NCBI GenBank assembly: GCA_030148545.1
Contig: JASBTF010000002.1
Coordinates: 113,218-177,217 of the forward strand
Source of the DNA: Pseudomonadota bacterium
GTDB lineage: Bacteria > Pseudomonadota > Alphaproteobacteria > UBA2136 > JASBTF01
Reading direction: 5' to 3'
DNA length: 64,000 bases
The notes beneath the pieces were generated by a model. The model was not told the origin of the DNA and ran no database searches. It saw only the letters and a program-made list of their open reading frames with translations. Numbering within the stretch: position 1 is the first letter of the stretch; each line of letters starts with the position of its first letter. Shown here piece after piece: positions 2,351-39,912 of this stretch. The translations under genes and the position numbers were made by a program.

Positions 2351-4102
2351 GTGCATATGAAGCACACATTTAATGCCGAGCAGCAACAAGCACTGAATAG
2401 CACCGCACATACGTTTATTACCGGTGCGCCGGGCGTAGGGAAAACAACGTTGTTGTTAGAAAAAGCGCGTCGCCTTGTGTTGGAGCATGGTGCGGGTAAG
2501 GTGGCAGTTGCCTCTTTCTCTTACCGAGGTGCAATGCACCTGGAGCGTTTGTTGGCTGAAAAGCAGGTAAAGGTGGGTACGCTGCGTGACTTTGCGCTGA
2601 AAGCGCTGAGTTTGGCTGAGCAGGCACCAGGTGCTGTGATTGATAATACGCATGTGCGCCAAGTACTGCGGGTTGCTATGCAAGATTCTGGGTTTGAAGG
2701 TACGCTAGAGGAAGCAGAACACATTTTAAGGCGTTTTAAGGGGCGTGGTGCAGCACCAGCCGATAGGGAGCGTTATTACAGCCTTGCACGCGCATACAGA
2801 GCTTTATGCGAAGATCAGGGTTTGGTAGATCGCCACGATGTTGTGCGCCAACACCTCATTGGTATGAGTAATGGCCAGTTAGCGCCGCTAAAATACCAGT
2901 TTATTTTGGTAGATAACATTCAAGACGCTAATGAGCTGCAATACATTTGGTTGAAGAAGCACGTAGAAGCTGGTGCCACATTGGTTGTTTGTGGTTGTGC
3001 TGAACCTACGCTGTTTGGGCGTGATGGTGCTCTGGGTGGTGGTGTGTTTGAAAAGTTAAAAAATGATTTGCCACAGCATGAGCATATTCAGCTTGAGCAG
3101 AACTATCGCCTCGGTAAACAGCAGGCAGTGGCGGCAGAAAAAATTGCCAGTTTGTTGAATGATCGGCAGCCACAAAGCAAAGCGGTGAAAGCAGTAAATG
3201 ATGTGGCGGTAGATGCTATTAGTTCGCAGAGTTTTGATCACAAACAGTCTGAATTAGTTGCCCTCAAGCAATTATTAAAAGAAAAAGAAAGTTTAAATGA
3301 TTGTAAAATAGGGGTTATATGTAGGCATGATTACAACAGCAATCGTGTGGCGAGTTATTTGCAGCAGCAAGGTGTTGCGCTAACTAACCTGAGTATGAAC
3401 CTATGGCAAACGCCAGGCGCCCAAGTGTTGTTAGACTTGTTAGAGGTGTTGTTAAACATGGCCGACGATACACAGCTGCGGCGTGTTTTGCGTGGTTATG
3501 GGTTAAGTGCTGGGTTGGTAAATAGCATGATGGCAGAAGGTTTGGTGGCAAAAGATTGGCTGAAACGAGGTGGTGTTTTGCCAGAAACGGTGAAGGTGCC
3601 TTCATCCAGCTTGCAGGTATTGGGTTTGGTGCAGCGGCGTTTGGCTGGCGGTTGGCGTTTAATGACAACCAAGCAAGCGCGGCCGCGTGAGGTGTTTAAG
3701 GCGGCGGCTTATGACCTGCTCATGGAGATGGATGATGCAGACCGCAAGGATGCGTTATTGGCGTTGGATGTGTTGTTGCATCTGCGTGGTAAGTTGACAG
3801 AGGTGCTGCCAAAAATTCACCAAATGCCGGCATTTAATGCTGAGGCGCGGGTTACGGTTTTGCCAGTGCGTGAGGCACGGAATTTGGAGTTTGATGAAGT
3901 TGTGGTGATGGATTTGGAAGATAAGTCTTGGCCAAATACTCAAGGGGTAGCGTTGGGTATGGACGAAAACCACGAGCGTAGCTTGTTCTACATGGCGCTA
4001 ACGCGTGCGAAGGGGTCTGTATCGTTATGGTCTTTGGGTAAGGCGGGTTCTTTTTATGAGGCAGTATCGTTGCAGCTCAAGCGCGCCAAAAAGCATAAAT
4101 AG
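2351..4102 (+). CDS. UvrD/Rep-like SF1A helicase with degenerate motifs II and III
   Basis: 583 residues with the recognisable order of SF1A helicase motifs. A Q motif lies near the start (FNAEQQQAL), Walker A GAPGVGKTT at 25-33 and a motif IV arginine in QNYR (251-254). Motif V is around RNLEFDEVVV and motif VI is ALTRAK near the C-terminus. Motif II, normally D-E-x-Q-D, reads VDNIQD (188-193), so the catalytic Glu is Asn. Motif III, normally GDxxQ, reads CGCAEPTLFG and lacks both key residues. This suggests a protein that binds nucleotide or DNA but hydrolyses ATP poorly, or a divergent enzyme. Start: GTG at 2351 or ATG at 2357. It lies alone between traK and the sigma/ParB fusion; a role in transfer or DNA handling is inference. 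Confidence 0.8.
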   Translation: MHMKHTFNAEQQQALNSTAHTFITGAPGVGKTTLLLEKARRLVLEHGAGKVAVASFSYRGAMHLERLLAEKQVKVGTLRDFALKALSLAEQAPGAVIDNTHVRQVLRVAMQDSGFEGTLEEAEHILRRFKGRGAAPADRERYYSLARAYRALCEDQGLVDRHDVVRQHLIGMSNGQLAPLKYQFILVDNIQDANELQYIWLKKHVEAGATLVVCGCAEPTLFGRDGALGGGVFEKLKNDLPQHEHIQLEQNYRLGKQQAVAAEKIASLLNDRQPQSKAVKAVNDVAVDAISSQSFDHKQSELVALKQLLKEKESLNDCKIGVICRHDYNSNRVASYLQQQGVALTNLSMNLWQTPGAQVLLDLLEVLLNMADDTQLRRVLRGYGLSAGLVNSMMAEGLVAKDWLKRGGVLPETVKVPSSSLQVLGLVQRRLAGGWRLMTTKQARPREVFKAAAYDLLMEMDDADRKDALLALDVLLHLRGKLTEVLPKIHQMPAFNAEARVTVLPVREARNLEFDEVVVMDLEDKSWPNTQGVALGMDENHERSLFYMALTRAKGSVSLWSLGKAGSFYEAVSLQLKRAKKHK

Positions 4103-4130: not shown

Positions 4131-4146
4131 AATTCCACGTGGAACT
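4131..4146. promoter_or_regulatory. parS-like palindrome upstream of the ParB-domain gene
   Basis: The 12-base core TTCCACGTGGAA (4133-4144) is a perfect palindrome. Aligned to the well-known chromosomal parS form TGTTCCACGTGGAACA, the 16 bases here match at 13 positions, including the central CCACGTGG. It lies 117 bp before a gene whose product contains a ParB-like domain. It could also act as a terminator hairpin for the helicase gene, since CTTTTT follows the right arm. Binding by the neighbouring protein is inference. Confidence 0.45.
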
Positions 4147-4204: not shown

Positions 4205-4234
4205 TTCCTGACATGTCAGGAAGTGTGCTATGAT
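4205..4234 (+). promoter_or_regulatory. promoter with overlapping 18-bp palindromic operator
   Basis: TTCCTGACATGTCAGGAA (4205-4222) is a perfect 18-bp palindrome. A good -10 hexamer, TATGAT, is at 4229-4234. The left arm of the palindrome supplies a -35-like TTCCTG at 18-bp spacing or CTGACA at 15 bp. A factor bound to the palindrome would cover the -35 region, so repression, possibly autoregulation by the fusion protein encoded 26 bp downstream, is the natural reading. Confidence 0.55.
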
Positions 4235-4260: not shown

Positions 4261-6411
4261 ATGTCTAAGGCAAAAGTTCTCGATAAGATGCCGAGCGATG
4301 CACAGCTTGAGTGCATGCGTCAGGATGATACGGGCTACAAATTAGCAAGTACAGATTTGGTGGCGTATTTGGATTGCCGTAAGCAGGCTATTTATAATAT
4401 TTCTCGCGGTTTTAGGTTGGATCCTGATGAGTTGTATCAGGAAGGGTACGAGGTTTTATTGACCTGTTTGCGAGATTATACGCCCGTTTATGAGCGTGGT
4501 GACAAGTTTGTGCGGGTGCAGTTTACGACATTTTTTGGTAACCGGCTGGAGGGTCGGGCAATGGAAATGCGTAATCGCGACCCTGAGTACCAGGCGCGCC
4601 AAGCATTTACTGATAAAATGGGTGATGAGGAAAAGCGCCGTTTTCGTGAAGACCCGCCGCTGTTGGTGCAGCACTTAGACCATGAATCCCCCATGCAGGA
4701 AATGCTGCGTGGTGAGGCTAGTGAGGCACGCGAAGAGGACGGAATGTCTGTTGAGCTTAAGGTGATGCGAGACAGCTTCTTTGAGCGCAAGTTAGATGAG
4801 CTTATTGCCGCAGAGCAGGATGATAAGCGCCGTGCTGTACTGATGCATGTAAAAGTTGGTGGTGTTTATAACTTCCAAGAAATTGCTTATCACTTTGGTG
4901 TCACAGATTCTCGTGCAAGCCAGATTATGAATGAGTTGATGGATGCGTTTTATGTGCAGCGGTTGATTCAGGGTAATGTCAAAAGTGTGGCGTACGATTT
5001 TGTGCGGCTTAAGTTTAATGAAAAGCGAAAGTATCGCTTGTTAGGAGAGGCGCTGCAAAATAGCGAAACAGGGCGCCAGCAGGAAATTTTAGAGATGTTT
5101 AAGGGTGAGTGCCCAGATCTTAAAATTCCGCAGCAACAGGCTGCGCCAGCTTTGGCTCAGCAACCAAAAACAACGCAGCAGGAGGCTGTTACAATGGTCA
5201 ACCCAATTAATTACGATGATGTGTTTGACGCTAAGGTGAATAAAGATTTTCCACCTGTGGCGCTGGAGATAAAAAAGCTGACCGAGTTGCAGCCATTGGA
5301 TATTGAGTTTCGCCAGCCGCATGCGCAGGTGAACGACCAGGTTTATGCGCAAATGGCTAAAAACCCAGCCGACTATCCGTTAATTATTAACGAGCAGGGG
5401 CAGGTTATTGATGGAGTGCGGCGTATTCAGGTAGCGGCAAGCCAGGGGGTGGCTGACTGGCCATGCATGGTGCACCATACAAAGGATGAAAAAGCAGCCA
5501 AGCAATTGCGTGTGTTGGTGGATGTACGGTTGAATAGTCCTGATAAAGTTGACCTGTATTACGCTATTGCAGCGTTGGAAGAATTAGGGTTATCGCAGCA
5601 GAAAGTTGCAGATATAGTTAAAATTAGTCGAACAAATGTAATAGTTTACAGTAAATTACGTAACCGTGGCTCGGCTAAATTACAACAATTGTTTGCAGAT
5701 GGTTTAATCCAAATTACTAATGCGAGTAGCTGTACTGATTTGTCGCACGATCTGCAAGATCAGGTAGCGGATTTTATTCGTGCTGCTGGGGTGCAGTGGA
5801 GTAAGGGTAGCCAGTTTACCGCACTGTATGAGGCAGCAGCTGAAAACCGTTTGGCTGCCTTTAGTGAAAAGCATTTACCGCAAGGTAAGGCGTTGGCAGC
5901 AGAGGCAGCAGTAGCTGCGGCAGAAGTGCCAGGACAAAAGTTGGATAATGTTTCGGCAGCGCAAAAACGCCGTTTGGAGGCTTACGAACAAGCGTTGCGT
6001 GACTCTGAAGTGTGGGCCGCACAGCGTGAGAGTGTAATTAACCGCCAAACTGATGATTTGGTACAAGCGTTTAACGAGATTGAACGGTTAAAGAAAGAAC
6101 TGCAAGCCGCAGAGCTGAGCCGTTTTGGTAGCCCCGAAGCGCTAGACGTGCTGATGAAAGAAATGCGGGCGTATTATGCTGTTTCGGAACGGGTTTCGGG
6201 CGCTGTGCATGGGTTGGAAATTGCCGCAAAAGACTTGGCCAAGCTGGAGCTGCGCCGCCAGCAACATATTGAAGTGGCAGAGCTCATTGATACGCTAGAT
6301 CAGCATGTAAATGCATTGCGTGTTGCTTTGGTTAATAAGGGTCCTGTGCCGGTGAAGGTGAAATCTCCCAGCACAAAGGCCACAGGCAGCGCGAAAAAAA
6401 GCTCAAATTAA
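4261..6411 (+). CDS. sigma-70-like / ParB-like fusion protein
   Basis: 716 residues in three parts. Residues about 45-105 resemble sigma-70 region 2 (DELYQEGYEVLLTCL, then an aromatic/basic stretch). An HTH at about 203-226 (FQEIAYHFGVTDSRASQI) resembles region 4. Residues about 338-420 resemble the ParB/Srx N-terminal domain, with VIDGVRRIQVAA in place of the usual DGxRRxxAA box. An HTH follows at 442-467 (LGLSQQKVADIVKISRTNV), as in KorB/ParB proteins. The C-terminal 190 residues are Ala/Glu/Lys-rich and predicted helical or coiled-coil, ending in a basic tail. I know no standard family with this architecture. It has its own promoter with a palindromic operator and a parS-like site upstream. 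Likely a DNA-binding regulator or segregation factor of the secretion locus; function is inference. Confidence 0.75.
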   Translation: MSKAKVLDKMPSDAQLECMRQDDTGYKLASTDLVAYLDCRKQAIYNISRGFRLDPDELYQEGYEVLLTCLRDYTPVYERGDKFVRVQFTTFFGNRLEGRAMEMRNRDPEYQARQAFTDKMGDEEKRRFREDPPLLVQHLDHESPMQEMLRGEASEAREEDGMSVELKVMRDSFFERKLDELIAAEQDDKRRAVLMHVKVGGVYNFQEIAYHFGVTDSRASQIMNELMDAFYVQRLIQGNVKSVAYDFVRLKFNEKRKYRLLGEALQNSETGRQQEILEMFKGECPDLKIPQQQAAPALAQQPKTTQQEAVTMVNPINYDDVFDAKVNKDFPPVALEIKKLTELQPLDIEFRQPHAQVNDQVYAQMAKNPADYPLIINEQGQVIDGVRRIQVAASQGVADWPCMVHHTKDEKAAKQLRVLVDVRLNSPDKVDLYYAIAALEELGLSQQKVADIVKISRTNVIVYSKLRNRGSAKLQQLFADGLIQITNASSCTDLSHDLQDQVADFIRAAGVQWSKGSQFTALYEAAAENRLAAFSEKHLPQGKALAAEAAVAAAEVPGQKLDNVSAAQKRRLEAYEQALRDSEVWAAQRESVINRQTDDLVQAFNEIERLKKELQAAELSRFGSPEALDVLMKEMRAYYAVSERVSGAVHGLEIAAKDLAKLELRRQQHIEVAELIDTLDQHVNALRVALVNKGPVPVKVKSPSTKATGSAKKSSN

Positions 6412-6506
6412 TGTGTGAAGCACTTGAAATTTAGGAGGGGTCACCCCATATTGAGGGTGTGATGTATGCAATTGTGTCCCGTGCCATAAGATTACGGAAC
6501 GTAACG

Positions 6507-8819
6507 ATGAAGAAATTTTTTGCGCCCCTGTTGGTTGTGTTGTTGTGTGTGGCTGGTAGCAGCCATGCTGATTATTGGGATGATTATGCGTATAGCGTGA
6601 ATACGCCAACATATCACCAAAGCCAGGCCAATTATTATCAAGGCTTATTGAATAATGGCAGTTTAAACCTAGAGCAACAAACAGCAGCACAGAATGCGCT
6701 GACATATCACCAAGGTATGGCAAGTGGCTCTACTGGCTATGGTGAGTATGGCGCTGGTGTTGCCATGTATGAAAGTGGAGAATGGAGCTCTGCACAGTTT
6801 AACGAATATAGCGCCTTGCATAACAGTGGTGGATATACAGGAAGTTTAAGTGGTGCTGCGCGTAATCAGGGCATTATTACAAGCAGCCAGGCTAACCAAG
6901 TAAACCAGCTCACTGGTGCAGTACAAAGTGGTGATAGCGCTGCCATTATTGGTTTTGGTGTTAGCTTGTTGGGTAGTGCTAGCTCTGGTGATCTTGGTTT
7001 ACCTCCACCGTTTTCGGGGCAGAGTGGGTCCAATTTAAACACCGGCGTATTAGATGATTTGTTGAACGGTATTATTGGTAGCTTAGGTGGTGGCTCCGGC
7101 GCTAGTGTGCCTGCTATTGGTGAGCCAGAGCAGCGACCAGCGCCAACACGTGCTGCTGGTGGGAGTGTTGCGCCAGTTTCACCGCAGTTACAGGGTGTGG
7201 GTATTGATACTACCTTTGGCGGTATGGCTGTTCCAACCATGTCTGATGCAGATGTGCAGCGAGCAAATGCGCACTATAATGCAATTTCGCAGCCTAAAAT
7301 ATCCGACCAGTTTACGGAAAATGGTGATGTAGATGTAGACCAGCTTGCACACTATTATGCTGGACCAGCGCTGGTGGGGCGTGACCAGTATTTAGAAAAC
7401 TATTTTAATAGCGACCAAGCACAAGTGTTTTTTGAAGAGCATATGCAAGGCACGCCAATGTATAACTTTTTGTTAACGCAGGCGTTGGCTAGCCCACAAA
7501 CAGCTGCTGTGTATCAAGCGATGTTATCAGACGGGCAGGAGCGCTATGGAGATTTTCAGAACCGTGCTTTGGCCTTAACAACCCCAGTACAGCGTGAGGC
7601 TTTAACGCAGGCTAGTCGTTATTGTTCTGAACAACTGGCGGCAGCTGGTGAAGGCTATGATAGCCAGGTTGCGATAGATTGCCTGGAAAGCAGCTACACT
7701 GTTGGGGATGATGGCAATTTAGTTGATAACAGCAAGTCAATAGCGGCTGGTGTTGGTGTGCAGGCGGCTTCGGCGGTTATGAACTCTAAGTTACATGGCT
7801 ACCTGACGTTGCGGAACCTATGTGGGGTTTATAACCCGTCTTATGGTGGTTATGTGAATGATAATAGCGGCGGGGCGGCTTTCCAGCGTTGCTGGTGGGT
7901 TGATTTAGTCTCAGAGCGCAACTTCTGCTTAGATGGACAGGGAGCGAGTTGTTATGTTCAGGCTACGCCTGCACCTCGTCCGTGGATGACTGTATTGGGT
8001 CGTGCTGCACAAACAGCTGGTTTTCTGGTTACTGGTGTAGCAGACCAAAGCTTACAGGTTATGCAGGAGCTGCGCCGGCCATACCGCATTACAGTGGGTG
8101 ATGATAAACTGACGGCATATCAGGTGGTGTTATTGGCTGAGCAAGCGTTGTTTGAGCTACGGCTTAACCAGGGCGGCCAGAATGCTATTGGTAATGTGCA
8201 CCCTATGGCGCAAAGCCTGGCGCAGGCTGCCAGTGCGGTAGACTTGACCAGTGGTGATGATTTTTATGATGCGCAATTGTTCCGCCAAAACACAGGCTGT
8301 AGTCTAGATAACGTAGGCGGTTTACATGGCCAGTTTATTGGTTTCCTTGAAGGTATGGCGGGTGACCAGGTGGCATTCCCGAGTGGTGTGGGCGAGTTAA
8401 GCATACCAGCACCGCAAGACCGTGCAGATAAGCTGATTGATATGGCGGTAGCCTGTGCCTATAACCGCCCAGGTGGCAGTTTAGCATATACAGAGATTTT
8501 TGCTGAAGGCTCTAACATATCTGAGCAGTTAGCACCGCATATTGAGCGTATTGCTTATGCCGCAACCTTAGATGTATTACGCCATGTGCGACAACAGTTG
8601 CGCTCTGCGCTGCGCGAGCACCAAACGGCTGGGGCAATATTTACCGGGCCAGAGTATGCTGATTTTAATTATCAGTACCAGTCAGCACAGCCGGCACCGG
8701 CAGAAGTACTACGTGCCATTGAGTTAGAGATTGAGCGTGTGGATGAATATGTTTCACAGCTTAAGATGATGGCGGAACAGGCGCGCCAAAACGCAACGAC
8801 CAGTGCTGGGGATGTGTAG
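6507..8819 (+). CDS. large exported protein of the secretion locus, function unknown
   Basis: 770 residues with a clear signal peptide (MKKFFAPLLVVLLCVAGSSHA). The start is therefore placed at the ATG at 6507 rather than the in-frame one at 6459. The N-terminal third is rich in Gly, Ser, Asn, Gln and Tyr with low complexity (residues about 20-200). The C-terminal two thirds are globular-looking and contain at least eight cysteines, in contexts such as YCSEQ, DCLESS, LCGVY, RCWW, FCLDG, SCYV and GCSL, suggesting disulfides in the periplasm. The stop is directly followed by the next start (TAGATG), so it is coupled to the TraG-like gene. It may play the part of TraN or TraH in mating-pair formation, but I recognise no family motif. 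Confidence 0.7.
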   Translation: MKKFFAPLLVVLLCVAGSSHADYWDDYAYSVNTPTYHQSQANYYQGLLNNGSLNLEQQTAAQNALTYHQGMASGSTGYGEYGAGVAMYESGEWSSAQFNEYSALHNSGGYTGSLSGAARNQGIITSSQANQVNQLTGAVQSGDSAAIIGFGVSLLGSASSGDLGLPPPFSGQSGSNLNTGVLDDLLNGIIGSLGGGSGASVPAIGEPEQRPAPTRAAGGSVAPVSPQLQGVGIDTTFGGMAVPTMSDADVQRANAHYNAISQPKISDQFTENGDVDVDQLAHYYAGPALVGRDQYLENYFNSDQAQVFFEEHMQGTPMYNFLLTQALASPQTAAVYQAMLSDGQERYGDFQNRALALTTPVQREALTQASRYCSEQLAAAGEGYDSQVAIDCLESSYTVGDDGNLVDNSKSIAAGVGVQAASAVMNSKLHGYLTLRNLCGVYNPSYGGYVNDNSGGAAFQRCWWVDLVSERNFCLDGQGASCYVQATPAPRPWMTVLGRAAQTAGFLVTGVADQSLQVMQELRRPYRITVGDDKLTAYQVVLLAEQALFELRLNQGGQNAIGNVHPMAQSLAQAASAVDLTSGDDFYDAQLFRQNTGCSLDNVGGLHGQFIGFLEGMAGDQVAFPSGVGELSIPAPQDRADKLIDMAVACAYNRPGGSLAYTEIFAEGSNISEQLAPHIERIAYAATLDVLRHVRQQLRSALREHQTAGAIFTGPEYADFNYQYQSAQPAPAEVLRAIELEIERVDEYVSQLKMMAEQARQNATTSAGDV

Positions 8820-11800
8820 ATGAGCTTTCCTGATTTTGGTTTTCTGCCTGAGCAGGTCAACACAACGTTGGCTGCTTTTGCACAGCAGGGGTATTTCTTC
8901 CAGCTATTAGCAGGCCACGGTAGTGGTGATGAAAATCTATACTTTTTGGCACTGGCTGCTGGTTTGGTTGGTGCGGTGCTTATTTTGCTCAATAAAGGCT
9001 TTCATAAGTTGAGTGTCATTGGCCCTTGGCTGCTGATTCTTGTTGTTACACTGTTAAGCCCTTATGCGAGCGGTATTTTATTCCACCAGTTTGATGATAC
9101 GTTACTGGCAAGCCCAATTAGTAACCAAACGGGTGTAATTTACTCGGCTGATTTACAGCCAATGGTAGACCAAGAAGGTACACCACCAAATGCAGCGCTA
9201 AATACGCAAGTAAGAAATGCAGAGACTGGTGAAGAGGAGGCTAGAACATTTAGAGATACGGTGGAGAGTGTTAACCAGTCAGGTTCTGGGACGGCTCAGG
9301 TTATTGGGTTTATGCCGCAAATTGTTGCTATTGACCTTATTAACCGTGTGCACCGTGCGGTCTACACAGCGCTATTTGTACCGGATAGCTCGGGTGGCCA
9401 GCCCCGGATTCGTAACTTTTTTGCGTCTCTTTCTGGGTTAGCAGATTTTGGTAATGACGGTGACTTGACCTTCCAGCGCCAGCATGATTTGGCACGACTG
9501 GTATTTACCTATCGCTCGTTATGTGATGAGCCAGTTTCATCGCTGCTAGATAACTCTGTAAGCAATCTGAACCGCTTGCACCAGAAACTATTTACGTATG
9601 ACCAAGTGGCACGTACAGGGCGTGACTATTTAGCAAAAGTAAAAAATGAGCAGCTAAAGGGGACAATTGCTAATTCAAGCAATATTCGTTACTTCCGCCC
9701 GCTTGCTGTGCCGTTAGATACTGGCATGCTAGCCGAAGCTGATTTAGGTGTTTTAGATAGACACTGGCACTGGGAAAACCCAAGCTTTGCCGCTGTTGAG
9801 ATTAGTACATCGCAGGTTGGTGATGTGGTGAGTTTGTTTAACTCAGACTATCATACCGTTTTGACCCGAACAGGTGGTGTTGGTGGCTGGGGGATTTTTG
9901 GTGGTGATAAATCAGAAGAAACTGTGTTGAGAGAGTTGCTGGAAGATGAATCTACAGAAGTTCAAGATAAACTGCAAAAACACACCGCTGTTATGCTGGG
10001 CCACCCTGGACAAATAAGCGCACCGCCGCGTGGTAATATTATTGGCAATGTATTATGGACTGCTAGTACGTTAGGTTTGGGTAATATCTTTAGGAATAGC
10101 TCTGGCGTTGTTGGCACAAGTTATAGCCACCAGGCGCAAACAGTAACGCCAGGGGTAATAGCAGATAGAGGTGTGGCGCTGATTGAGGTACCCACTGGTG
10201 ACAGTCCCTTTTGGACAAGTGTTGCGAGCAGTGCTGGGCGTGGATTTATACGTTTTGAGCCTTCCTATACTTTGCAAACATGCCGTCAGCTGCACCAGGT
10301 TACCCGTGCCAGCATAGTAGCTGTGGGCGAAACCGCGATATTGAACCATGAAGGTATGGTGGTTTTACAAAATGGTAGTATGGATGGTGATGTGGCTGCC
10401 CGTATTGAGCTGCCTGGTACCGAACATGCGCGTACAGCGCGTACGGCCATTGCTAATGCCGCACAAGACCATTACTTTAAAGCTGAGGCACATCGCCGCT
10501 ATCCAGCAGCACCGTCAGCAGAAGAAGCGGTGCGCATGCACTTTTATAACGAACTGGTACGTGTGGGATTGGTAACAATGGACCAATTGGCACTGGTGCC
10601 CGCCGACCATGGCCGTGCTGCGTTGGATGACAGCATGAATGCATCTCGTGGGGATTTGGTAGGCCAAACTTTGGGTGATATTGATGCCGTGCAGGGGCTT
10701 ATTACCTGGGTGGCGGAAATTAGCGTGGTTGTTGGACGTTGGTTTGATGGTGCTGGTTTGATGGTTTACATCACCTTTATGGATAAAATGATCCTGTTTG
10801 CGCTTGGATTTGTAATTATTCTTACCCCGTTCCTAATGCTTATGGGGCTGCTCATACCTGGTTATGCTATGGGTGTGCTGATGACGGCTGTATTGGTACC
10901 GCTTGTTATTAACACAATTCCACTTGCCTATACTTTGGTAACCGCGTTCTCCATGGTGTTTTATGAGATTATGCAGGCCACTGGCTCGGATATTGCGACG
11001 GATGCGTTCTTTGTAGCGGTTGTTTCGGCTGGTTATACGGCGTCGGCAGCTATTGCGGTGTTCCTATTGTTTGGTGTAGGTAACCCGCAGGCGATTATTC
11101 AGCGTATTGCACAAATGGATGAGGCACCAAAACGCGTTGCTGATGAGGCGGAGCGGAATGCTAAAATTGCCGCCATTAGTGGTGTTACTGTGTTAGCTAC
11201 TGGTGGTATGGGCGGTGTTGCCGGGGCGTTAGGGGCAAAAGCCGTTGGCGGCCGTATGATGGCTATTGCTGCAAAAACAGCTAAAACACAAACAGCGGAA
11301 GTATTTAGCTCCGTAGGTGGTGGGGCATTTAAACCCATAGCAGAAGTAGCCAACGCTGGTTTTGAAGGTTATAGCCAAGGTAAAGAAATTGCCGAAGAAG
11401 AGAACAAGCGCGGTGAAGAGTTTGATGCTGCTAAAGCACGGGATTGGGAAAGTGCTACGGTTGATTCTGCTGATGTGCAAAGCTACTACAAAAGAAAATT
11501 TGATGCAGAGTTTGATAGCTTAGATGCTGCTGGTACTGTGGGTGACCTTGACCTGCAGGCTGAGATAAGAGCGGAAGTTATTGCTGAGTATGATAAAAAC
11601 AACCCCGATGCAACGACTGAAGAGCGTGAGAGCGCTATTGAACAAGGGGTGCTTGAACGACGTAAGCAAGCTTTCTTTAATGGTAAATATGGTGAACTGA
11701 GTGAGCAGCAAAAATACCAAACATATGAGAGCCTGCGTAGGTTTAAGGAGCATGAACAAGGTAATTACCCAGAAGGTGAATCTAGAACAGCTGCACAAGA

Positions 11801-12551
11801 TGCGTTTGTAGGTTCTGATACAGCTATAGCTGGTTCAGAGGCCGCGGCGCGGAAAATGCACCATGATAATTATGATAAGGATCATGATAGGAAGAAGCGC
11901 ACCCGTGTTAACTGGAATGATGAGGTAGTTAAGGCTGGTAATGTTGCTAAGCGCCATGAGAAGTATGGCAACTTGATGATGCAAGGTGCTATGGGGCACA
12001 TGTATATGCAGAGCATTCAGGGTAAGCAGTCTATACAGGCATTGTTCCAAGATCGCCAAGTGAAAGAAATGGCCGATAAGATTGGTAAATCTGTGTGGAA
12101 AGACCATGGTATGGGGCACTCTGTGGGTGGTTTTTCGGTACAAGATAGTGTAACGGGTGAGCGTAAAATGTTTGATGGCGGGCATGATATGATGTTCTCT
12201 CACATTCGTAAGGGCTTGATGAAGCAGGGCATGTCACAGAGTGAGGCCTCGGTTAAAGCAGCGCAGTTGCATAGTGAGTTTGCGATTGAGCTTAAACGTT
12301 TGAAAACAGCTGGTAAGTATAATGGCCAAGGGTTTCAAAATGAGGCGAAACAAATTGGCGCTGCAGATAGTAAGGGTAATGCCAAGTTCTCATATGGTGT
12401 TAAGTATGATACCGCTATGAAAGATCTTTCCACAGCAAGTGCTAACTTCAAAGAGGCTTTGAGTATGTTTGAGGCTGGTGCTAATTTGACAGGCAGCACT
12501 GGTGTTGTGCATTTTAATGATGATCAAACTGCTAACCGTAAAGTTAGGTAA
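8820..12551 (+). CDS. TraG-like large polytopic membrane protein
   Basis: 1243 residues. Two hydrophobic helices near the N-terminus (about 40-61 and 65-88) are followed by a long periplasmic-type segment to about residue 650. A cluster of four or five helices lies at about 655-765 (FALGFVIILTPFLMLMGLLI and following), then a 470-residue charged soluble tail rich in Glu, Lys and Gln. This layout resembles TraG of F-type systems and DotA/TraY-like proteins, which sit in the inner membrane and stabilise mating pairs or form the secretion channel. The name is based on topology, size and context only. It starts at the base after the preceding stop. Confidence 0.6.
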   Translation: MSFPDFGFLPEQVNTTLAAFAQQGYFFQLLAGHGSGDENLYFLALAAGLVGAVLILLNKGFHKLSVIGPWLLILVVTLLSPYASGILFHQFDDTLLASPISNQTGVIYSADLQPMVDQEGTPPNAALNTQVRNAETGEEEARTFRDTVESVNQSGSGTAQVIGFMPQIVAIDLINRVHRAVYTALFVPDSSGGQPRIRNFFASLSGLADFGNDGDLTFQRQHDLARLVFTYRSLCDEPVSSLLDNSVSNLNRLHQKLFTYDQVARTGRDYLAKVKNEQLKGTIANSSNIRYFRPLAVPLDTGMLAEADLGVLDRHWHWENPSFAAVEISTSQVGDVVSLFNSDYHTVLTRTGGVGGWGIFGGDKSEETVLRELLEDESTEVQDKLQKHTAVMLGHPGQISAPPRGNIIGNVLWTASTLGLGNIFRNSSGVVGTSYSHQAQTVTPGVIADRGVALIEVPTGDSPFWTSVASSAGRGFIRFEPSYTLQTCRQLHQVTRASIVAVGETAILNHEGMVVLQNGSMDGDVAARIELPGTEHARTARTAIANAAQDHYFKAEAHRRYPAAPSAEEAVRMHFYNELVRVGLVTMDQLALVPADHGRAALDDSMNASRGDLVGQTLGDIDAVQGLITWVAEISVVVGRWFDGAGLMVYITFMDKMILFALGFVIILTPFLMLMGLLIPGYAMGVLMTAVLVPLVINTIPLAYTLVTAFSMVFYEIMQATGSDIATDAFFVAVVSAGYTASAAIAVFLLFGVGNPQAIIQRIAQMDEAPKRVADEAERNAKIAAISGVTVLATGGMGGVAGALGAKAVGGRMMAIAAKTAKTQTAEVFSSVGGGAFKPIAEVANAGFEGYSQGKEIAEEENKRGEEFDAAKARDWESATVDSADVQSYYKRKFDAEFDSLDAAGTVGDLDLQAEIRAEVIAEYDKNNPDATTEERESAIEQGVLERRKQAFFNGKYGELSEQQKYQTYESLRRFKEHEQGNYPEGESRTAAQDAFVGSDTAIAGSEAAARKMHHDNYDKDHDRKKRTRVNWNDEVVKAGNVAKRHEKYGNLMMQGAMGHMYMQSIQGKQSIQALFQDRQVKEMADKIGKSVWKDHGMGHSVGGFSVQDSVTGERKMFDGGHDMMFSHIRKGLMKQGMSQSEASVKAAQLHSEFAIELKRLKTAGKYNGQGFQNEAKQIGAADSKGNAKFSYGVKYDTAMKDLSTASANFKEALSMFEAGANLTGSTGVVHFNDDQTANRKVR

Positions 12552-12592
12552 GGTTATTTAGTAACCTCTGCACACTTGCTGTATGCGTTTGT

Positions 12593-12611
12593 TTGCCGTA
12601 ACCTACGGCAA
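12593..12611 (+). promoter_or_regulatory. hairpin covering the ribosome-binding region of the next gene
   Basis: TTGCCGTAACCTACGGCAA forms a perfect 8-bp stem with a 3-base loop, and its last base is the A of the downstream ATG. No Shine-Dalgarno sequence is visible outside it. A second small hairpin, GGTTA/TAACC, lies at 12552-12566. Translational control of the 701-residue protein is a reasonable inference. Confidence 0.4.
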
Positions 12612-14716
12612 TGGCGCGACGTAAACGTGATAAGTTTGTAACACCACCCCCTCCTGTATGGCCGGAGCACAGTGTGCGTGTGTTGGCTGGTCGATTTGAC
12701 CTAAGCCACGGTGAACACCCCGATGTGATGCGTGAAGATGCGCTGACAAGCTTGAACCCTCTGTTGATTGATGAGCAACAAACGGCCGAGACTGTGCCGG
12801 TGCTGCAAAAGTATGAGTTGCCAGTAGCGGCTGATACATGTGGCCACCACACCATGCGTGACGATACTTATGCTAAAGCTGCCGGTGTTGATGATGAAGT
12901 GCCAGTGGCACCCTTGTTTGTACGTGACTTAGCGGGGCGTGTCATTTGCACCGGGTTGGCGGGTGCCATGACCAAGCAGTACGATAGTTTCCCCACCGGG
13001 CCGACATTTACATTTCCAAAAGGCTGTTTTGATGTAACCGCCGATGTGCCAGGTGCTGAGCTGATTGATAATGTGTTCTTCACTAAGTGGCGCACGTTGG
13101 ACATGAGCTTTGATGCGACCATGGCGCCAACAGGTAGCCCTGATTTGCGAGTATGTGCGGCATATAACAACCCGCAGAATTACCCTTATAAACTACGCCC
13201 AGATACGTTTTACCAAGACGGGTGGCGCCTGCCACAAACCATGATGTTGTTTGCGCGGCGTGATGGCATTGATAAGTCGGAAGCAGAGGAAGCCGCGGCA
13301 GAATTAATGAGTGCGTGGGCAAGCCGTCCTACTGGGCAGACGTATGAAGAATTTTACGACGCTAACGATGGTGAGACCTGGTTTGAGGAACTGTTTTTGC
13401 AAGGCTGTACAGTGGTACCAACGCTGGAAGCGGCAAATGGGTTTAACCAAGTATCGGCCGAGTTTGAATTGGAAGATTTTTGGCCAGGCCGTGCTGTGTT
13501 GGGATTGCATGAAATTGTTGAAACACAGCCAAATGATGCCCCGCAGGGCACCATTTTGGAGGTGCGTAAACCTGGTTATGTAACGGGCGATGCAATTAAA
13601 AAAGCGCAAGTGGTGGTAAGCGATGGTAGTGGTTACCAAAGCCCGCACGCTGATGCACCTGCTGCATTGTTCCCAGATTTGCGTTTGCCACACCAGCGCA
13701 GTACCGATACATGGTTTGATACATGGTTGCCCACGCACCCTCAGCATTTTGAGGAGCCGGCAATTTGGGGCTGGCAGCTTACGACAGGTCGTTTTGTACA
13801 GCTGAGCGGCCCGCTGTGGGACCCGCTGCACTATGTGTATGACTCTACCAAGCTGATTCAACGTGCTTTTCGTGAGCCGTATATGGATAATCCATCTTTG
13901 GCACCTGTGCCGGAGGAGATGAAAACGCGTTTTTATCCAGTAGTGCCGATGAAAGCGTTTGATACATTGAACCACGCCACATTTGTGGAGCGTGAGCAAA
14001 TGAATTTAACGCCATTAAGCGCTGTGGACCGCGTGCGTACGGCAGAAGAAATTGTCGGTGTGGGGTATCACCCGTTACCAGTGCAAATGGAGTATGAGCT
14101 GGACCACATGTGGTTCCCTCAGTTGCTGCCAGGGATTAGGCTAGATGCCACGGTGGCAGAGGAAGATGAGCCGCGTTTGGCAAAAGTGGTAACACCAAAG
14201 GTTGATGTAGAGGCGTACCTGAAAAGTACCCGTACAGTGGAGCAAGCACCATGGGTGGTTGACCGTGTAATGCCGCCTGTGGAAGGAAATACAGCCGACC
14301 CTTACCCGTTTTTGCAGCGTTACTTGGACTTGGAAATGCCGGACGAGCAGGTATTTGCCGAGCACGAAGGGTTGATGTTGGCCCACGTGCCAGAAAGCCA
14401 GTTGAAGCAAACGGTGCAAGTTTTGCTAGGCGATGCCGAGGTTCAAACTGAGTTGGATGGTGTTCAAAACGGCTTGTACGATGCGTTTTACGATTTTCGT
14501 GAGCGCTCACTTACATTGCGACAAATGCGCCACAAGCTCTGGCGAAAAGCGCCGGGGCAGGTCGTGCTAGGCCATTGGTATGGGGTGAATGTTGAGGAGT
14601 TAATGAACCTGGTGGATGAGCTGGGTGATGGCTACCGTCAGCAAGGCGCTCGGGTAATTTTGCAATGTGTGGTGGGGCCTAAAAAACAGGCGCAACCGCA
14701 AGAACAAGTAGCATAG
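12611..14716 (+). CDS. unknown 701-residue protein of the secretion locus
   Basis: Not recognised. There is no signal peptide and no membrane helix: the N-terminus is basic (MARRKRDKF) and the rest is acidic, Pro- and Trp-rich, with repeated TWFDTW, GWRLPQTMM and HPLPVQMEYELDHMWFPQLLPG-type aromatic stretches. A soluble globular protein is likely, and the C-terminal region has a more helical look. It is flanked by the TraG-like gene and traB in the same orientation, so a role in secretion, as a cytoplasmic factor or possible effector, is inferred from position only. The start at 12611 is embedded in a hairpin; no alternative upstream start is evident. Confidence 0.65.
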   Translation: MARRKRDKFVTPPPPVWPEHSVRVLAGRFDLSHGEHPDVMREDALTSLNPLLIDEQQTAETVPVLQKYELPVAADTCGHHTMRDDTYAKAAGVDDEVPVAPLFVRDLAGRVICTGLAGAMTKQYDSFPTGPTFTFPKGCFDVTADVPGAELIDNVFFTKWRTLDMSFDATMAPTGSPDLRVCAAYNNPQNYPYKLRPDTFYQDGWRLPQTMMLFARRDGIDKSEAEEAAAELMSAWASRPTGQTYEEFYDANDGETWFEELFLQGCTVVPTLEAANGFNQVSAEFELEDFWPGRAVLGLHEIVETQPNDAPQGTILEVRKPGYVTGDAIKKAQVVVSDGSGYQSPHADAPAALFPDLRLPHQRSTDTWFDTWLPTHPQHFEEPAIWGWQLTTGRFVQLSGPLWDPLHYVYDSTKLIQRAFREPYMDNPSLAPVPEEMKTRFYPVVPMKAFDTLNHATFVEREQMNLTPLSAVDRVRTAEEIVGVGYHPLPVQMEYELDHMWFPQLLPGIRLDATVAEEDEPRLAKVVTPKVDVEAYLKSTRTVEQAPWVVDRVMPPVEGNTADPYPFLQRYLDLEMPDEQVFAEHEGLMLAHVPESQLKQTVQVLLGDAEVQTELDGVQNGLYDAFYDFRERSLTLRQMRHKLWRKAPGQVVLGHWYGVNVEELMNLVDELGDGYRQQGARVILQCVVGPKKQAQPQEQVA

Positions 14717-14801: not shown

Positions 14802-16247
14802 GTGGCAGATAAAAGTAACCTTCCGCCGGATTTGGATTTAGATGCACTAGAGGCTGAGGCTTCTGGCCGTGTTTCAGTTGCTGATCAAGCAGCACAAGCC
14901 GATAAAGATGCAGGTCCTGCTACGAAGCAGAATCCGCTGGTAGAAAAATTCCAAGCTTTACCGCGTAACCAACAAATTGTGGTGGTAGCACTAGCGGTGA
15001 TTTTGGTTTTTGCTGTGTTTGGCCGTGGTGGTAACGACCAAGCAGCACCAGTACAGCCTGCAACTGTAAATGCTGATGTAAATGCTCAACCACAAGAAAA
15101 CCCATTTGCAGGGGTAGATATTGACCGCCCGGCGTTGACTCAACGTTGGTTGCAGCAACAACAGCAAGCACTGTCTGACTTGCAGGGCCAGGTAGAAACT
15201 CGCCTAGACCAAGCTGACCAGCAAATGCAAAACATGTTTACGCAAAACCAACAGCTACAGCAGGAAATTCGTGGTGTGGTAGATGAGTTCCGCAGTGAGA
15301 TTCGTAACCTGCAGGACGCAAACCGCCGCGATCGTCAAGTGATTCAGCAAATTGCTGAGGAAACACAGCGTTTGCAGCAACAAACACCATTGAGCACCAC
15401 TGGTGCGCTGAATGATGTAAATGCGTACCAGCCGCGCCGTACAAGGATTTCGCAAACCCCTTTAGGTAACGCCAGCCTACAGGTTGGCAGCGACCAATCT
15501 CTGCTAGGTGGTGTTGTTGATACCACTTCTGGCCGTTCTCGTCGTGTTGACCCTGATAATGATGGTTTGGAAGCAGGTGAGCCGGAAGAGCCAGTACTGC
15601 CGTTTATTCCACCACTTGGTTTTGTAAAAGGTACATTGCTAAATGGTTTGGATGCTTTGGTGGGTGGCCAGCCAACACCAGCGTTGGTGCGCTTGGATGG
15701 GCGTTATAAAACCGCAGCAAATTCTACGGTAATTTTGGATGGCTGTTTTATGCTGGTGGAGTTCCAGGGTGATATTTCTACCGAGCGGGCCATGGGTAAG
15801 CCAAGCCGTATGACCTGTGTGTACCCCGACCGTGGTGCGGTAACCTACAGCGTAAGCGGATATGTAGTGGATGCGGATGACGGTATTATTGGTATCCCCG
15901 GTGTGTTTTATGAGGGTGATGCAACGCGCCTAGCTGCTGCTATGTTGGCAGACTTTGCTGCGGGTGTGGCTGCCATTGTGGAGCAAAATGAATCTACCTT
16001 TACCACCAATGCCGATGGTGTGAGCCAGCAAACACTAACAGGGGATGAAACCCGTGCTGAAATTGCTGGTGGTGTGGAGCAAGCTGTAGGCAGCTTGCGT
16101 GATTACTTGTTTGACCGTGTAAACCGTGTGGTGCCATTTGTGCGCGTAGATGCGACACGCCAGCTACACTTGGTAATTTTGAGCGGTACTGAGCTGCGCA
16201 GTGAAGGCGGCGCTTGGACCTTGTTATTTAATGCGGAAAACCGTTAG
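14802..16247 (+). CDS. traB: TraB-like (VirB10-type) channel protein
   Basis: 481 residues. TraB spans from the inner membrane to the outer-membrane ring of the secretion channel. Order seen: an acidic cytoplasmic N-terminus, one membrane helix at about 58-74 (QQIVVVALAVILVFAVFG) and a Pro-poor Gln-rich coiled coil at about 120-205. The TraB/VirB10 beta-barrel domain from about 270 opens with FVKGTLLNGLDALVGGQPTPALVRL, the characteristic G-x-L-L-x-G-x-D motif. The start is GTG at 14802 with TTAGGATAACC as ribosome site. It is followed by traV 12 bp downstream, as in canonical F-type loci. Confidence 0.88.
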   Translation: MADKSNLPPDLDLDALEAEASGRVSVADQAAQADKDAGPATKQNPLVEKFQALPRNQQIVVVALAVILVFAVFGRGGNDQAAPVQPATVNADVNAQPQENPFAGVDIDRPALTQRWLQQQQQALSDLQGQVETRLDQADQQMQNMFTQNQQLQQEIRGVVDEFRSEIRNLQDANRRDRQVIQQIAEETQRLQQQTPLSTTGALNDVNAYQPRRTRISQTPLGNASLQVGSDQSLLGGVVDTTSGRSRRVDPDNDGLEAGEPEEPVLPFIPPLGFVKGTLLNGLDALVGGQPTPALVRLDGRYKTAANSTVILDGCFMLVEFQGDISTERAMGKPSRMTCVYPDRGAVTYSVSGYVVDADDGIIGIPGVFYEGDATRLAAAMLADFAAGVAAIVEQNESTFTTNADGVSQQTLTGDETRAEIAGGVEQAVGSLRDYLFDRVNRVVPFVRVDATRQLHLVILSGTELRSEGGAWTLLFNAENR

Positions 16248-16259
16248 GGAGAAAAAGCT

Positions 16260-16673
16260 ATGAAATATATTGCTTTGATGATGATTGCAGCCACCACACT
16301 TGCGGGGTGTAAGTATTATGGTAGTGCATTGCCACCGGAGTATCCGATGTCTATGGATGATTCGTTAGCTGTGGCGCGTGACCAAGCAGCCGCCGGTAGC
16401 ATGGGCACACAGCGCCCTATGGTGCGTATACAGCAGCGTCCACGTATTGAGCAGCCAGCCTATATTCCAGAAAAAGAGCTGGCCGTAGTAGCGCCACCAA
16501 AAACACTGCTGGTATGGACATACCCGCATGTAACAGCCAATAACACCCGTGTATTTGGTAACTGGAGTACTATTTTCCTCACCGAGCGTTATGAGTGGGT
16601 ACGCCCAGCAAACGAACAACCGCTGGAGAGCAGCGCCGCGCCGCGGATACCCGGCATGGCAAGCCCTCAATAA
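16260..16673 (+). CDS. traV: TraV-like outer-membrane lipoprotein
   Basis: 137 residues. The lipoprotein signal peptide ends in LAGC, with Cys17 as the lipidated residue. TraV is the VirB7-like lipoprotein that anchors the TraK/TraB ring in the outer membrane. Apart from the lipobox the sequence is short and Pro-rich, with a V-x-T-x-x-P-like middle. Assignment rests on lipobox, size and position between traB and traC. A strong terminator follows. Confidence 0.8.
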   Translation: MKYIALMMIAATTLAGCKYYGSALPPEYPMSMDDSLAVARDQAAAGSMGTQRPMVRIQQRPRIEQPAYIPEKELAVVAPPKTLLVWTYPHVTANNTRVFGNWSTIFLTERYEWVRPANEQPLESSAAPRIPGMASPQ

Positions 16674-16706
16674 CGTGAGTGGTTATAATTTATTCGTAAA
16701 AAAAGG

Positions 16707-16728
16707 AGCCCCGTTGGGGCTTTTTTTT
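16707..16728 (+). terminator. rho-independent terminator after traV
   Basis: AGCCCC-GTT-GGGGCT stem followed by TTTTTTTT. It sits 33 bp past the traV stop and 34 bp before traC, so traC is likely read from its own promoter or by read-through. Confidence 0.9.
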
Positions 16729-16761
16729 GCGTCTGGCACAAAAACTGCGTAAAGTATTGGT

Positions 16762-19341
16762 ATGGTAAATAAAAAGAAAAACCTGCCTATTCGTCCTAAT
16801 CGTATTGGGGAGCAATTACCGTACTTTGAGTTTGAGGAAACGGCGGATAGCAAATTCCACCGCGTACACTTGCTGCAAGACGGCAGCTTGGGTGTGGCGT
16901 GGAAGTGCTCGGTACCTGCGAGTTACGGGTTTGATAATGGTGTGGCGCATACCATTAATGAATTACGCACCTTTTTAGAGAATTTACCTGCTGACTATGA
17001 AGCGCAGCTGATTATTACCACGCACAATAATTTAAAAGATCGTTTGCAAGAGTATTTAAGCCTGCCAACAGGAGATGAGCGTGCACAACAGTTGCGGGAG
17101 TCCCGTGCTGAAAAGCTGTGGCATGCCGGTGCTGCGGGTTACATGGTAGGCGATGGTTTGTACAGCCGCCTGCGCGACACACAGTTGATTATTACGCTGC
17201 GCTCACCAACATTTGGCGACAAGCTAGGCGCGCTAAATGGCTTGTTTAGTGGTTTGTTCCAAGTGGGGGCAAGTGTATTGCGGGCGTTGAAAATTCCTAT
17301 GGAAGGCTCAGTCGGTAAATTATTGGATGACCTGAGTAAGGGGACACTGGCAGAGTTTCATGAAATTATTTTATCTACCGAGAGTACGCTGAGCGATATG
17401 TTCCGTATGGAGCGTATGACGCTAGAAGAGCTGAAAAAGCACTACTGGCAAGCTTATGCCCCAAGTTATGCTGATCCACAGCAAAAAGAAGTTATTAGTG
17501 CTGAAGAACCGCTGAATGACCAAATGTTCCCGCTGCCAATTGATAATGAGCATTATTTGGTAAAAGTGGGAGATGACTACCACGGTGTGCTGATGCTGGC
17601 GATGATGCCTGATGTGGTGGGGCCTGATTATTTGTTCTCGCTGCGGCGTAGTTTGCTGGGGCAGCATACATTATTTTGCAACTTTGTTGCCGCCAACCAA
17701 AGCTTGGAACGCGCTAAGCTGACGCTGGCAAGTGAGCTACGTAAGCGTGTTTCTAATGTATTTAACCGTGAAGATGCGGCCGAGTTTGCGGCACAAGCAT
17801 CGGAAGTGAAGCAGCATTTGTTCCACGGGCGTAAAATTATGTACGTCATGATGGGGTTGATTGTGCATGGTAAAACCAAGGAAGAAGTGGAAGATACCTT
17901 GCTACGCCTTAACGCAGTGCTGAAAAAGGCGAGTGTGGTACCGGATATTGAGAAGTCTATGGCATTGCAGGCGATGAGCTATAGTTGGCCGCTTGTGTTC
18001 CGTAATGATTTTACTCGCCCATTTGCGCGTACACGCCGTGTTTTGAGCCATGATATTGCCGACCTGTTGCCTGTGCATGGTCACATTATTGGCGACTGGA
18101 ACGGTAAACATCAGCCGCAGGCGATGTACCTCAACCGTGATGATGAAATTGTGTTTTTTGACCATACTTCGCCGGAGTTTGTGAATTGGCACTACGCTAT
18201 TACAGGGACATCGGGCTCGGGTAAGTCTTTTGCAGTGGTGGACCTAACCTTGCAGCTGTATAGCGCTGGGGTGAAAAAACAGTACTTAATGACCATTAAA
18301 GACGACTACGACCGCTTTGCAGAAACAATGGGTCGGTTGATTATTATTGATCTAGATCGTCAAGAAAGTTGCATCAACCCGTTTGCTGGTGAAATTAACA
18401 AAACACGCTTGCAGCAATGGGCACAAGCAGTGGAGCTAATGGTGCAGCGGGGTGATGACCGGGCCATTAGCAGTAAAGAGAAGTTCCTGATTGAAGAAGT
18501 GGTGGCCTACGCGTACGACATTGTGCCGGAGGGTGATATTCTGCGCCCAACATGGATTCGTGAAGCGTTCCTTAAGTTCCCGTTTAAGGATGAAGAGCAA
18601 CGGGTGCTGGCACACTCTATGTCGGAGTCTATGGGGTCCTATTGTGAGGCTGGGGTGTACGGCAAGTTATTTGATGGCCAACCCGCCATTAGCGAGCAAG
18701 ATAAGTTGGTGGTATTCAACCTGCAAAATGTACTGAATGAGAGCATTTCTGATGTGATTATTTTCAGCATTTTCACCATGCTGGATAACGTGATGTACCA
18801 AGGTGACCGTGGTGAGAAGAAGCACCTGCTGGTGGACGAGATGATTAGTATGATAAGCGCTAAAGGTGGTGCCGCGGTGGCTAACCAAATTAAGCGTGCG
18901 TTCCGTACTTACCGTTCATTGAATTGCATGTGTGGTATTGCGAGCCAAAATGAGGAAGATTTAACCACCGATGTTGGTCAAGCCGTTATTGGTAACATCA
19001 CCAAGCGCCTTATTCTTAAACCACGGCGTGAGATGATTCCAACGCTGATGAAGGTATTGGGGCTGAAGAGTGAACGCCATGAAGCAAATGTGGCGAGCTT
19101 AGAAACTAAGCCTGGGTATTACTCGGAGTTTTACTTAATGAGCCCACATGGCGAGACGGTATGTCGCCTACTGACAGACAAGCTTACCTATGCCCTTGCT
19201 ACAACAACACCAGATGATGTCTCAGAGTTGAATAAGTTCCGCGCCAAGCATGATGGGGATTGGTGGCAGGCGACATTAGCGTTTGCTGAGGCGTATCCAA
19301 ACGGTGTGCGTGCTGCAAAACAAGCCCAGTCACAGCAGTAA
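16762..19341 (+). CDS. traC: TraC-like (VirB4-type) type IV secretion ATPase
   Basis: 859 residues, the usual TraC length. TraC/VirB4 ATPases energise pilus assembly at the inner membrane face. The N-terminal TraC domain opens with QLPYFEFEETADSKFHRVHL. The ATPase domain has Walker A GTSGSGKS at residues 482-489 and Walker B LLVDE with D692/E693. An arginine/glutamine-rich segment follows (AFRTYRSLNCMCGIASQNEED), as in the VirB4 family. All key residues are present, so the enzyme should be active. It is flanked by traV upstream and a PilP-like protein downstream. Confidence 0.93.
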   Translation: MVNKKKNLPIRPNRIGEQLPYFEFEETADSKFHRVHLLQDGSLGVAWKCSVPASYGFDNGVAHTINELRTFLENLPADYEAQLIITTHNNLKDRLQEYLSLPTGDERAQQLRESRAEKLWHAGAAGYMVGDGLYSRLRDTQLIITLRSPTFGDKLGALNGLFSGLFQVGASVLRALKIPMEGSVGKLLDDLSKGTLAEFHEIILSTESTLSDMFRMERMTLEELKKHYWQAYAPSYADPQQKEVISAEEPLNDQMFPLPIDNEHYLVKVGDDYHGVLMLAMMPDVVGPDYLFSLRRSLLGQHTLFCNFVAANQSLERAKLTLASELRKRVSNVFNREDAAEFAAQASEVKQHLFHGRKIMYVMMGLIVHGKTKEEVEDTLLRLNAVLKKASVVPDIEKSMALQAMSYSWPLVFRNDFTRPFARTRRVLSHDIADLLPVHGHIIGDWNGKHQPQAMYLNRDDEIVFFDHTSPEFVNWHYAITGTSGSGKSFAVVDLTLQLYSAGVKKQYLMTIKDDYDRFAETMGRLIIIDLDRQESCINPFAGEINKTRLQQWAQAVELMVQRGDDRAISSKEKFLIEEVVAYAYDIVPEGDILRPTWIREAFLKFPFKDEEQRVLAHSMSESMGSYCEAGVYGKLFDGQPAISEQDKLVVFNLQNVLNESISDVIIFSIFTMLDNVMYQGDRGEKKHLLVDEMISMISAKGGAAVANQIKRAFRTYRSLNCMCGIASQNEEDLTTDVGQAVIGNITKRLILKPRREMIPTLMKVLGLKSERHEANVASLETKPGYYSEFYLMSPHGETVCRLLTDKLTYALATTTPDDVSELNKFRAKHDGDWWQATLAFAEAYPNGVRAAKQAQSQQ

Positions 19342-39257: not shown

Positions 39258-39902
39258 TTAGAATTTTAAGAAAAGTTTCCCTAACAGCACACCAAGTAGG
39301 CCACTGAGGAATACTGGTAGTGTGTGCCACACTAGGACGTGTAGTGGGTCGTCCACTGGGCAGGTGAGGCGGCAGGCAATGGCAGAGAGTGATGTAATAG
39401 CAACCACAGCTAACAGACCGGTTAGCCCAGGGTGCAGTGGTGCAGCACGTTTAAGCATCACAAAAATAAGTAAGCCAGGTAGTAGGCCGTAGGCGAGCAA
39501 TTTCCAAGCTTCAAAGTGGTGTGTAAATTCATGCAGGATCTTGGTGGGTAGCATATCGGGCAGGTAGAAGCTAAAAATAGCCATTAAGCCTAACCAGATG
39601 AGAAAAGGTGCAACAGCGAGTGCGACAAGCCAGCGTCGTGGTCGGCTATCGGGCACGCTGAGGTAAAACACAGCAAGTGCTGCCGTAGCCCCTGCCAGTA
39701 AGGTAAATAAAATCTCTGCTAAGAATGGAATGGTGACCATGCGGGCCATCCAGTCGCCACGCCAACCTTCTACCAAGCTAGAAACAACTAAAAACGTAAC
39801 GGCAATAGCAATCCACCGTGCCGCACGGCAAGCAGGCCCCGCCAGTTTAGGGCTTGGCTGGAGGTCGCTGGTTAAGGCATCAATAGTTTTTTTCGTAGTC
39901 AT
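39258..39902 (-). CDS. nrsF: NrsF-type anti-sigma factor
   Basis: 214 residues from the ATG at 39902 (MTTKKTIDALTSDLQPSPKL). NrsF (formerly DUF1109) proteins hold a partner ECF sigma factor at the inner membrane until a redox or metal stress signal releases it. Six membrane helices can be read, with an N-terminal cytoplasmic helix that would bind sigma. Late cysteines (ACRLTCPVDDPLHVLVWH) match the conserved redox-sensing pair of the family. It follows the ECF gene by 10 bp. Confidence 0.88.
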   Translation of the reverse strand: MTTKKTIDALTSDLQPSPKLAGPACRAARWIAIAVTFLVVSSLVEGWRGDWMARMVTIPFLAEILFTLLAGATAALAVFYLSVPDSRPRRWLVALAVAPFLIWLGLMAIFSFYLPDMLPTKILHEFTHHFEAWKLLAYGLLPGLLIFVMLKRAAPLHPGLTGLLAVVAITSLSAIACRLTCPVDDPLHVLVWHTLPVFLSGLLGVLLGKLFLKF

Positions 39903-39912
39903 GGTATTTGCT

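Follow-up and report, generated by a model that had tools for sequence, protein, structure and literature searches.

A conserved sigma-like and ParB-type fusion protein associated with a chromosomal F-type type IV secretion system in uncultured Alphaproteobacteria

An uncultured alphaproteobacterium with a small genome encodes, within a chromosomal F-type type IV secretion system (T4SS) locus, a 716-aa protein that joins a sigma-70-like N-terminal half to a ParB-type C-terminal half. The fusion is conserved as one chain among relatives, is co-inherited with one T4SS subtype, and has a conserved putative operator at its own promoter. With moderate confidence we propose that it is a KorB-like, self-regulating, RNA-polymerase-binding regulator of this secretion system. 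Since the same protein accompanies the same secretion machine across the bacterial group, it probably serves as the transcription regulator dedicated to that system.

In the proposed mechanism, the divergent sigma-70-type module would use a region 2.2-like surface to contact the RNA polymerase core and a region 4-like helix-turn-helix (HTH) to contact DNA. The ParB/KorB-type module would bind an operator built of TGTCAG half-sites, presumably reading it with its own HTH, and may sense nucleotide in a DGERR pocket. The protein would dimerise, probably via its coiled-coil tail. By occupying its own operator, which would cover the −35 region, it would restrict its own synthesis, and with polymerase attached it would set the expression of the T4SS, whose genes may be direct targets.

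The fusion gene and its conservation

The window analysed is a stretch of 64,000 nucleotides, with the fusion gene at 4261-6411 on the forward strand, as are all the parts of it given below. The gene is a single uninterrupted ORF, and the continuous frame read in the initial annotation thus holds. The overall extents in the protein are residues about 33-235 for the sigma-70-like half, about 320-500 for the ParB-like half and 561-693 for the tail. The region 2-like segment (residues 33-106; 4357-4578) was delimited by the NCBIfam model TIGR02937 and by AF2, and is collinear with RpoH region 2 in hhalign at low probability. A linker at 4579-4788, which in the alignment of homologues contains a near-invariant PPLLVQHLD block, joins it to the region 4-like HTH (residues 177-235, EIAYHFGVTDSRASQ; 4789-4965) recognised by Pfam Sigma70_r4 and TIGR02937. 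The ParB N-terminal (NTP-binding) fold (residues 320-425; 5218-5535) and the ParB-type central HTH domain (residues 430-500; 5548-5760) were each located by profile search, alignment and Foldseek. The former contains DGVRR at 5410-5424 (VIDGVRR at about 5404-5424), the equivalent of P-motif 2 (consensus DGERR). Finally, a long helical/coiled-coil tail (residues 561-693; 5941-6339), already noticed from the sequence and now seen as a helical segment by AF2 and in the alignment, replaces the ParB C-terminal domain.

A search of relatives found the fusion gene in 18/18 genomes of the order. Contig ends truncate two of these copies; in all complete copies the two halves share a single frame, which answers the initial question of whether the halves co-occur. 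At the start of the ParB half there is an internal AGGAGG (5180) followed by an in-frame ATG (5194; together 5180-5196). A Shine-Dalgarno sequence and an ATG at the junction of the halves might speak for two genes joined by a sequencing error. It is extremely unlikely that such an error explains the frame, and the one-frame relatives rule it out, because the same fusion recurs in independent genomes at 39-53% identity. Judged from the sequence, the internal start could, in this species, let the ParB half be translated on its own. It was looked for in the relatives and was present in none, and separate translation from this ATG was rejected because the start has no conservation.

Altogether 22 fusion loci were collected on GTDB contigs, all labelled as uncultured Proteobacteria, mostly Alphaproteobacteria; a full-length fusion was also found in three genomes that belong to other orders of this class. 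The sampled families grouped sensibly in a tree of the fusion gene, and such a tree fits vertical descent without proving it. A profile of the sigma half run over 399 genomes of the phylum returned the fusion's own genome only, in a draw likely to contain few fusion-bearers. Homologues on plasmids, in phages and in viruses were searched for and none was found; an origin from any of these was rejected on that ground.

The N-terminal half is remotely but consistently sigma-like

TIGR02937 (sigma70-ECF) matches residues 43-227 of the window copy with E=8.2e-9 and 35 bits, below the curated cut-off of 42.9 bits, in agreement with the sigma-like residues 45-226 first proposed. All members with a sigma half, 17/17, are matched by it (best E 4.6e-9), and the match covers regions 2 to 4 in the correct order. 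With region 2 alone, TIGR02937 was matched in 6/10 members (E 2e-4 to 1e-2) and was usually the sole family matched among 18,950, while Pfam Sigma70_r2 was matched in 2/10. Pfam Sigma70_r4 was matched in 13/18 members, the window copy being sub-threshold. The AF2 model of the sigma half is moderate (pLDDT 73, pTM 0.40). Most of its 44 Foldseek matches in the PDB are sigma factors, each with E over 0.1 and none individually significant, and no PDB entry was matched by a profile of the sigma half. When hhalign was run against the clade's own sigma factors, RpoH region 2 and region 4 aligned collinearly and better than shuffled decoys, with low probabilities.

The motif DELYQEG aligns with the core-binding region 2.2 of RpoH, which has the signature DxLxQE, and L58, Q60 and E61 are near-invariant in the alignment of fusion homologues. 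The region 2.3 tryptophan pair is absent: FFGNRLE occupies the position of YATWWIR. This pair is used in promoter melting by primary-type sigmas. Its replacement suggests that the fusion protein may not open promoters. From the TIGR02937 matches, the Foldseek trend, the alignment of DELYQEG with region 2.2 and the missing tryptophan pair, the N-terminal half is called sigma-like and probably polymerase-binding, which does not imply that it is an initiation factor. Its sigma identity, as judged from sequence and models, is remote but consistent. Like members of the sigma-70 family (ECF/FliA-like), it is matched over regions 2 to 4 in order, and its GVTxSRxSQ HTH resembles the FliA-type region 4. 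Unlike them, it scores sub-threshold on the family model, has the long PPLLVQHLD linker and no tryptophan pair, and carries an attached ParB.

The C-terminal half belongs to the ParB family

Single-sequence ParB models gave weak matches at residues 336-460. When a profile of the ParB half was searched against the PDB (hmmsearch), Spo0J (1vz0) was matched with E=4e-8 and 6sdk with 5e-8. Foldseek of the full AF2 model returned Noc, ParB and KorB at probability 1.00, and the alignment with the genome's own ParB runs through the ParB central domain. The predicted ParB-like domain and ParB-type HTH were thereby confirmed, and the ParB identity of this half is firm at the level of sequence and model. 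Pfam ParB_N was matched in only 3/18 members, with a best E of 0.02, below threshold.

The half keeps GxRR (as DGxRR, with the last Arg invariant). P-motif 3, ENxQR, is degenerate in the fusion family: the Glu is lost and the Asn is mostly kept. In Caulobacter ParB the motif Glu is required for hydrolysis and dispensable for CTP binding, which requires the motif Asn and Arg (PMC8367383). By this guide, nucleotide hydrolysis by the fusion is unlikely and binding is possible. In the window copy, two positions of the nucleotide pocket are occupied by Val and Asp, and this copy may bind no nucleotide. Together with the degenerate P-motif 3, these residues make nucleotide switching doubtful in this species. 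A more elaborate reading would be a sigma factor with its own nucleotide-gated DNA clamp, in which TGTCAG operators serve as loading sites for the ParB half, and nucleotide makes it slide or latch. If this were true, the attached sigma module, and polymerase with it, would be delivered to or held at secretion-system promoters; we consider it improbable.

The ParB fold and one parS-like palindrome upstream of the gene, AATTCCACGTGGAACT (4131-4146), could be taken to mean that the protein is a plasmid-type partition or copy-control ParB stranded in the chromosome. A role in partition or copy control had indeed been suggested, and no evidence for it was found. There is no parA beside the fusion gene, and a canonical parAB operon lies elsewhere in this genome. 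The palindrome is not conserved and is at chance level; the upstream parS-like site TTCCACGTGGAA was likewise rejected, since it is not conserved and its genome-wide matches fall below the reversed control. In the alignment with the genome's own ParB, the coiled coil stands where the C-terminal dimerisation domain would be. The fusion thus has none of the ParABS features (an adjacent parA, parS sites and the C-terminal dimerisation domain of ParB), and a stranded partition protein, for which plasmid, phage or viral homologues were also lacking, is very unlikely.

KorB of plasmid RK2 is a ParB-family regulator of replication and conjugative transfer genes (PMC11790492). The fusion resembles it in family and in structure, with the match at probability 1.00 given above, and differs in its sigma-like half, which KorB does not have, in its chromosomal location, in its P-motif 3, which is not intact, and in its tail. 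ParB of plasmid NAH7 is a transcription activator of conjugation genes (PMC12421886), and VirB of Shigella is a ParB-type transcription activator of virulence genes (PMC10770331). Together with KorB they are precedents for ParB-type control of transfer or virulence genes. To our knowledge, neither NAH7 ParB nor Shigella VirB carries a sigma-like module.

The view that no described protein combines sigma and ParB domains is out of date. A survey by Kaljevic et al. (2025) lists Sigma70 among the many domains fused to the ParB-CTPase fold, and the Sigma70 fusion, a bacterial protein, binds ATP in vitro (PMC12704722). Both that protein and ours have the ParB NTP-binding fold and a Sigma70 domain in one chain, with the sigma likeness remote in ours. 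The main text of the survey gives its Sigma70 fusion without organism, context or sigma regions. Since our family falls below the Pfam ParB_N threshold, a survey based on PF02195 may not have included it. Relative to the main text of that survey, the T4SS link and the putative operator are new; the new elements overall are a conserved fusion family, its joint inheritance with a single chromosomal T4SS subtype, and the putative operator. The ParB-fold/Sigma70 fusions reported in 2025 thereby acquire a conserved genomic setting as well as a candidate regulatory site, and a clade-wide sigma-type/ParB-type fusion offers a concrete system in which to ask whether ParB-type switches can directly control RNA polymerase.

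Co-inheritance with an F-type T4SS

The conserved order of the locus is pilin-like gene, TraL, TraE-like, TraK-like, helicase, fusion, and a downstream block with TraB and TraC. In the window all of these are on the forward strand. A small pilin-like ORF, TraL, a VirB8/TraE-like and a TraK-like gene occupy 265-2269, supported by synteny, with TraL and VirB8 model matches sub-threshold and the pilin and TraK labels positional. A UvrD/PcrA-like helicase follows at 2351-4102 (family matches, synteny). Downstream of the fusion, 6459-14716 encodes three large proteins of 786 aa, 1243 aa (TraG-like, judging from its position) and 701 aa, assigned by synteny and without meaningful Pfam or NCBIfam match, and 14802-19341 encodes TraB/TrbI-like and TraC (F-type ATPase) proteins (TraB 1.4e-18, TraC-F 6.5e-59, TrbI above cut-off). 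The F-type TraL, TraB and TraC neighbours bear out the T4SS setting, and the proposal of a regulator fixed in the chromosome is supported.

With the T4SS subtype defined by a TraC of at least 60% identity, close TraC (60-62% identity) was found among 289 Alphaproteobacteria in exactly the six genomes with a full fusion (G000, G001, G002, G075, G196 and G290); the remaining TraC matches had 27% identity or less. As these six genomes represent few families, co-inheritance is shown and not independent gains. The fusion was expected always to lie beside tra genes, and two divergent members, L053 and L054, depart from this: their fusion genes adjoin chemotaxis-receptor or AsmA genes, outside a T4SS and without the helicase. 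The L054 genome has the same T4SS on another contig, with a TraC 57% identical. A T4SS of the same kind was sought in the L053 genome (1.0 Mb) and was not found.

The helicase adjoins the fusion in the T4SS-linked loci long enough to tell, and partition-related proteins of plasmids are able to bind oriT and to assist transfer (PMC12421886). It could therefore be argued that the fusion works with the UvrD-like helicase as a relaxosome-like DNA-processing accessory of the secretion or transfer machine, its sigma likeness being a remote fold echo. The sigma-type match in order from region 2 to region 4, and the L053 and L054 copies outside a T4SS and without a helicase, L053 even retaining an operator half-site (see below), argue against this role, which we regard as improbable.

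The helicase also matches HelD (1.5e-10), more weakly than PcrA/UvrD. HelD is an RNA polymerase recycling motor. A transcription-linked role of the helicase is possible from this match.

Three other observations concern the surroundings. Directly before the T4SS genes (G000:C1:98000-113200, L021) lies a type IV pilus/type II secretion-like cluster, in which secretin-like, prepilin-like, PilB-type ATPase, PilC-like and prepilin-peptidase-like ORFs were identified by eye. Downstream of the fusion, CTTGAAA recurs about 17 bp before a TATAAT-like hexamer in L022, L023, L025, L035 and others (also by eye), which suggests a housekeeping-type promoter of the downstream T4SS block. At 39258-40461 on the reverse strand of the window, an ECF sigma factor gene is followed by a gene for a multi-pass membrane protein that could be its anti-sigma partner.

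A conserved putative operator upstream of the fusion gene

An everted 18-bp perfect palindrome, TTCCTGACATGTCAGGAA, is found at 4205-4222, upstream of TATGAT at 4229-4234. TGTCAG or CTGACA occurs within 200 bp upstream in 21/21 fusion loci tested. Windows drawn at random from these loci predict 1.5/21, the highest count in 300 draws being 5. An exact dyad TGTCAG-N-CTGACA is present in ten loci, with N = 6, 16-18 or 28-29. The spacings keep in phase with the DNA helix (R=0.92 at 11 bp); with a null of only five independent events, this value is reached in 0.7% of draws. The dyad is single genome-wide in 5/12 relatives searched (G001, G009, G010, G012 and G017). Several relatives have a weak −10-like hexamer (matching at 2-4 of 6 positions) 17-18 bp downstream of CTGACA, an arrangement consistent with a putative operator overlapping the −35 region. 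L053 has two TGTCAG in direct repeat upstream. Since this locus keeps the half-site without a T4SS, the site travels with the fusion gene and not with the T4SS, which is what autoregulation predicts. The conserved upstream site thus points to autoregulation of the fusion gene.

No inverted repeat was found at the T4SS promoters, and a T4SS-wide TGTCAG regulon was rejected because the exact inverted repeat does not recur in the loci examined (about 0.4 Mb). The T4SS might consequently be controlled indirectly or by way of a different site. A repeat essentially confined to the fusion's own promoter, the ParB half with its conserved putative operator, and the loss of the region 2.3 tryptophan pair would also suit a plainer KorB-like operator-binding repressor, in which the sigma-like half has lost polymerase binding and serves only as a second DNA-binding or scaffold domain, and only the own gene or a few genes are controlled. 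However, no part of the protein is as conserved as the sigma half (mean column identity 70-75% against 46-53% for the ParB half), the core-binding Q and E included. Such a repressor is a credible though rather unlikely alternative, and we retain the polymerase-binding regulator as the preferred reading.

A NarL/LuxR-type response-regulator gene is preceded, at a distance of about 45 bp, by a further dyad, TGTCAG-N21-CTGACA (G000:C1:468604-468636; L152 1005-1037). This dyad is a possible second target; such dyads are expected by chance per genome, and its spacing is out of phase.
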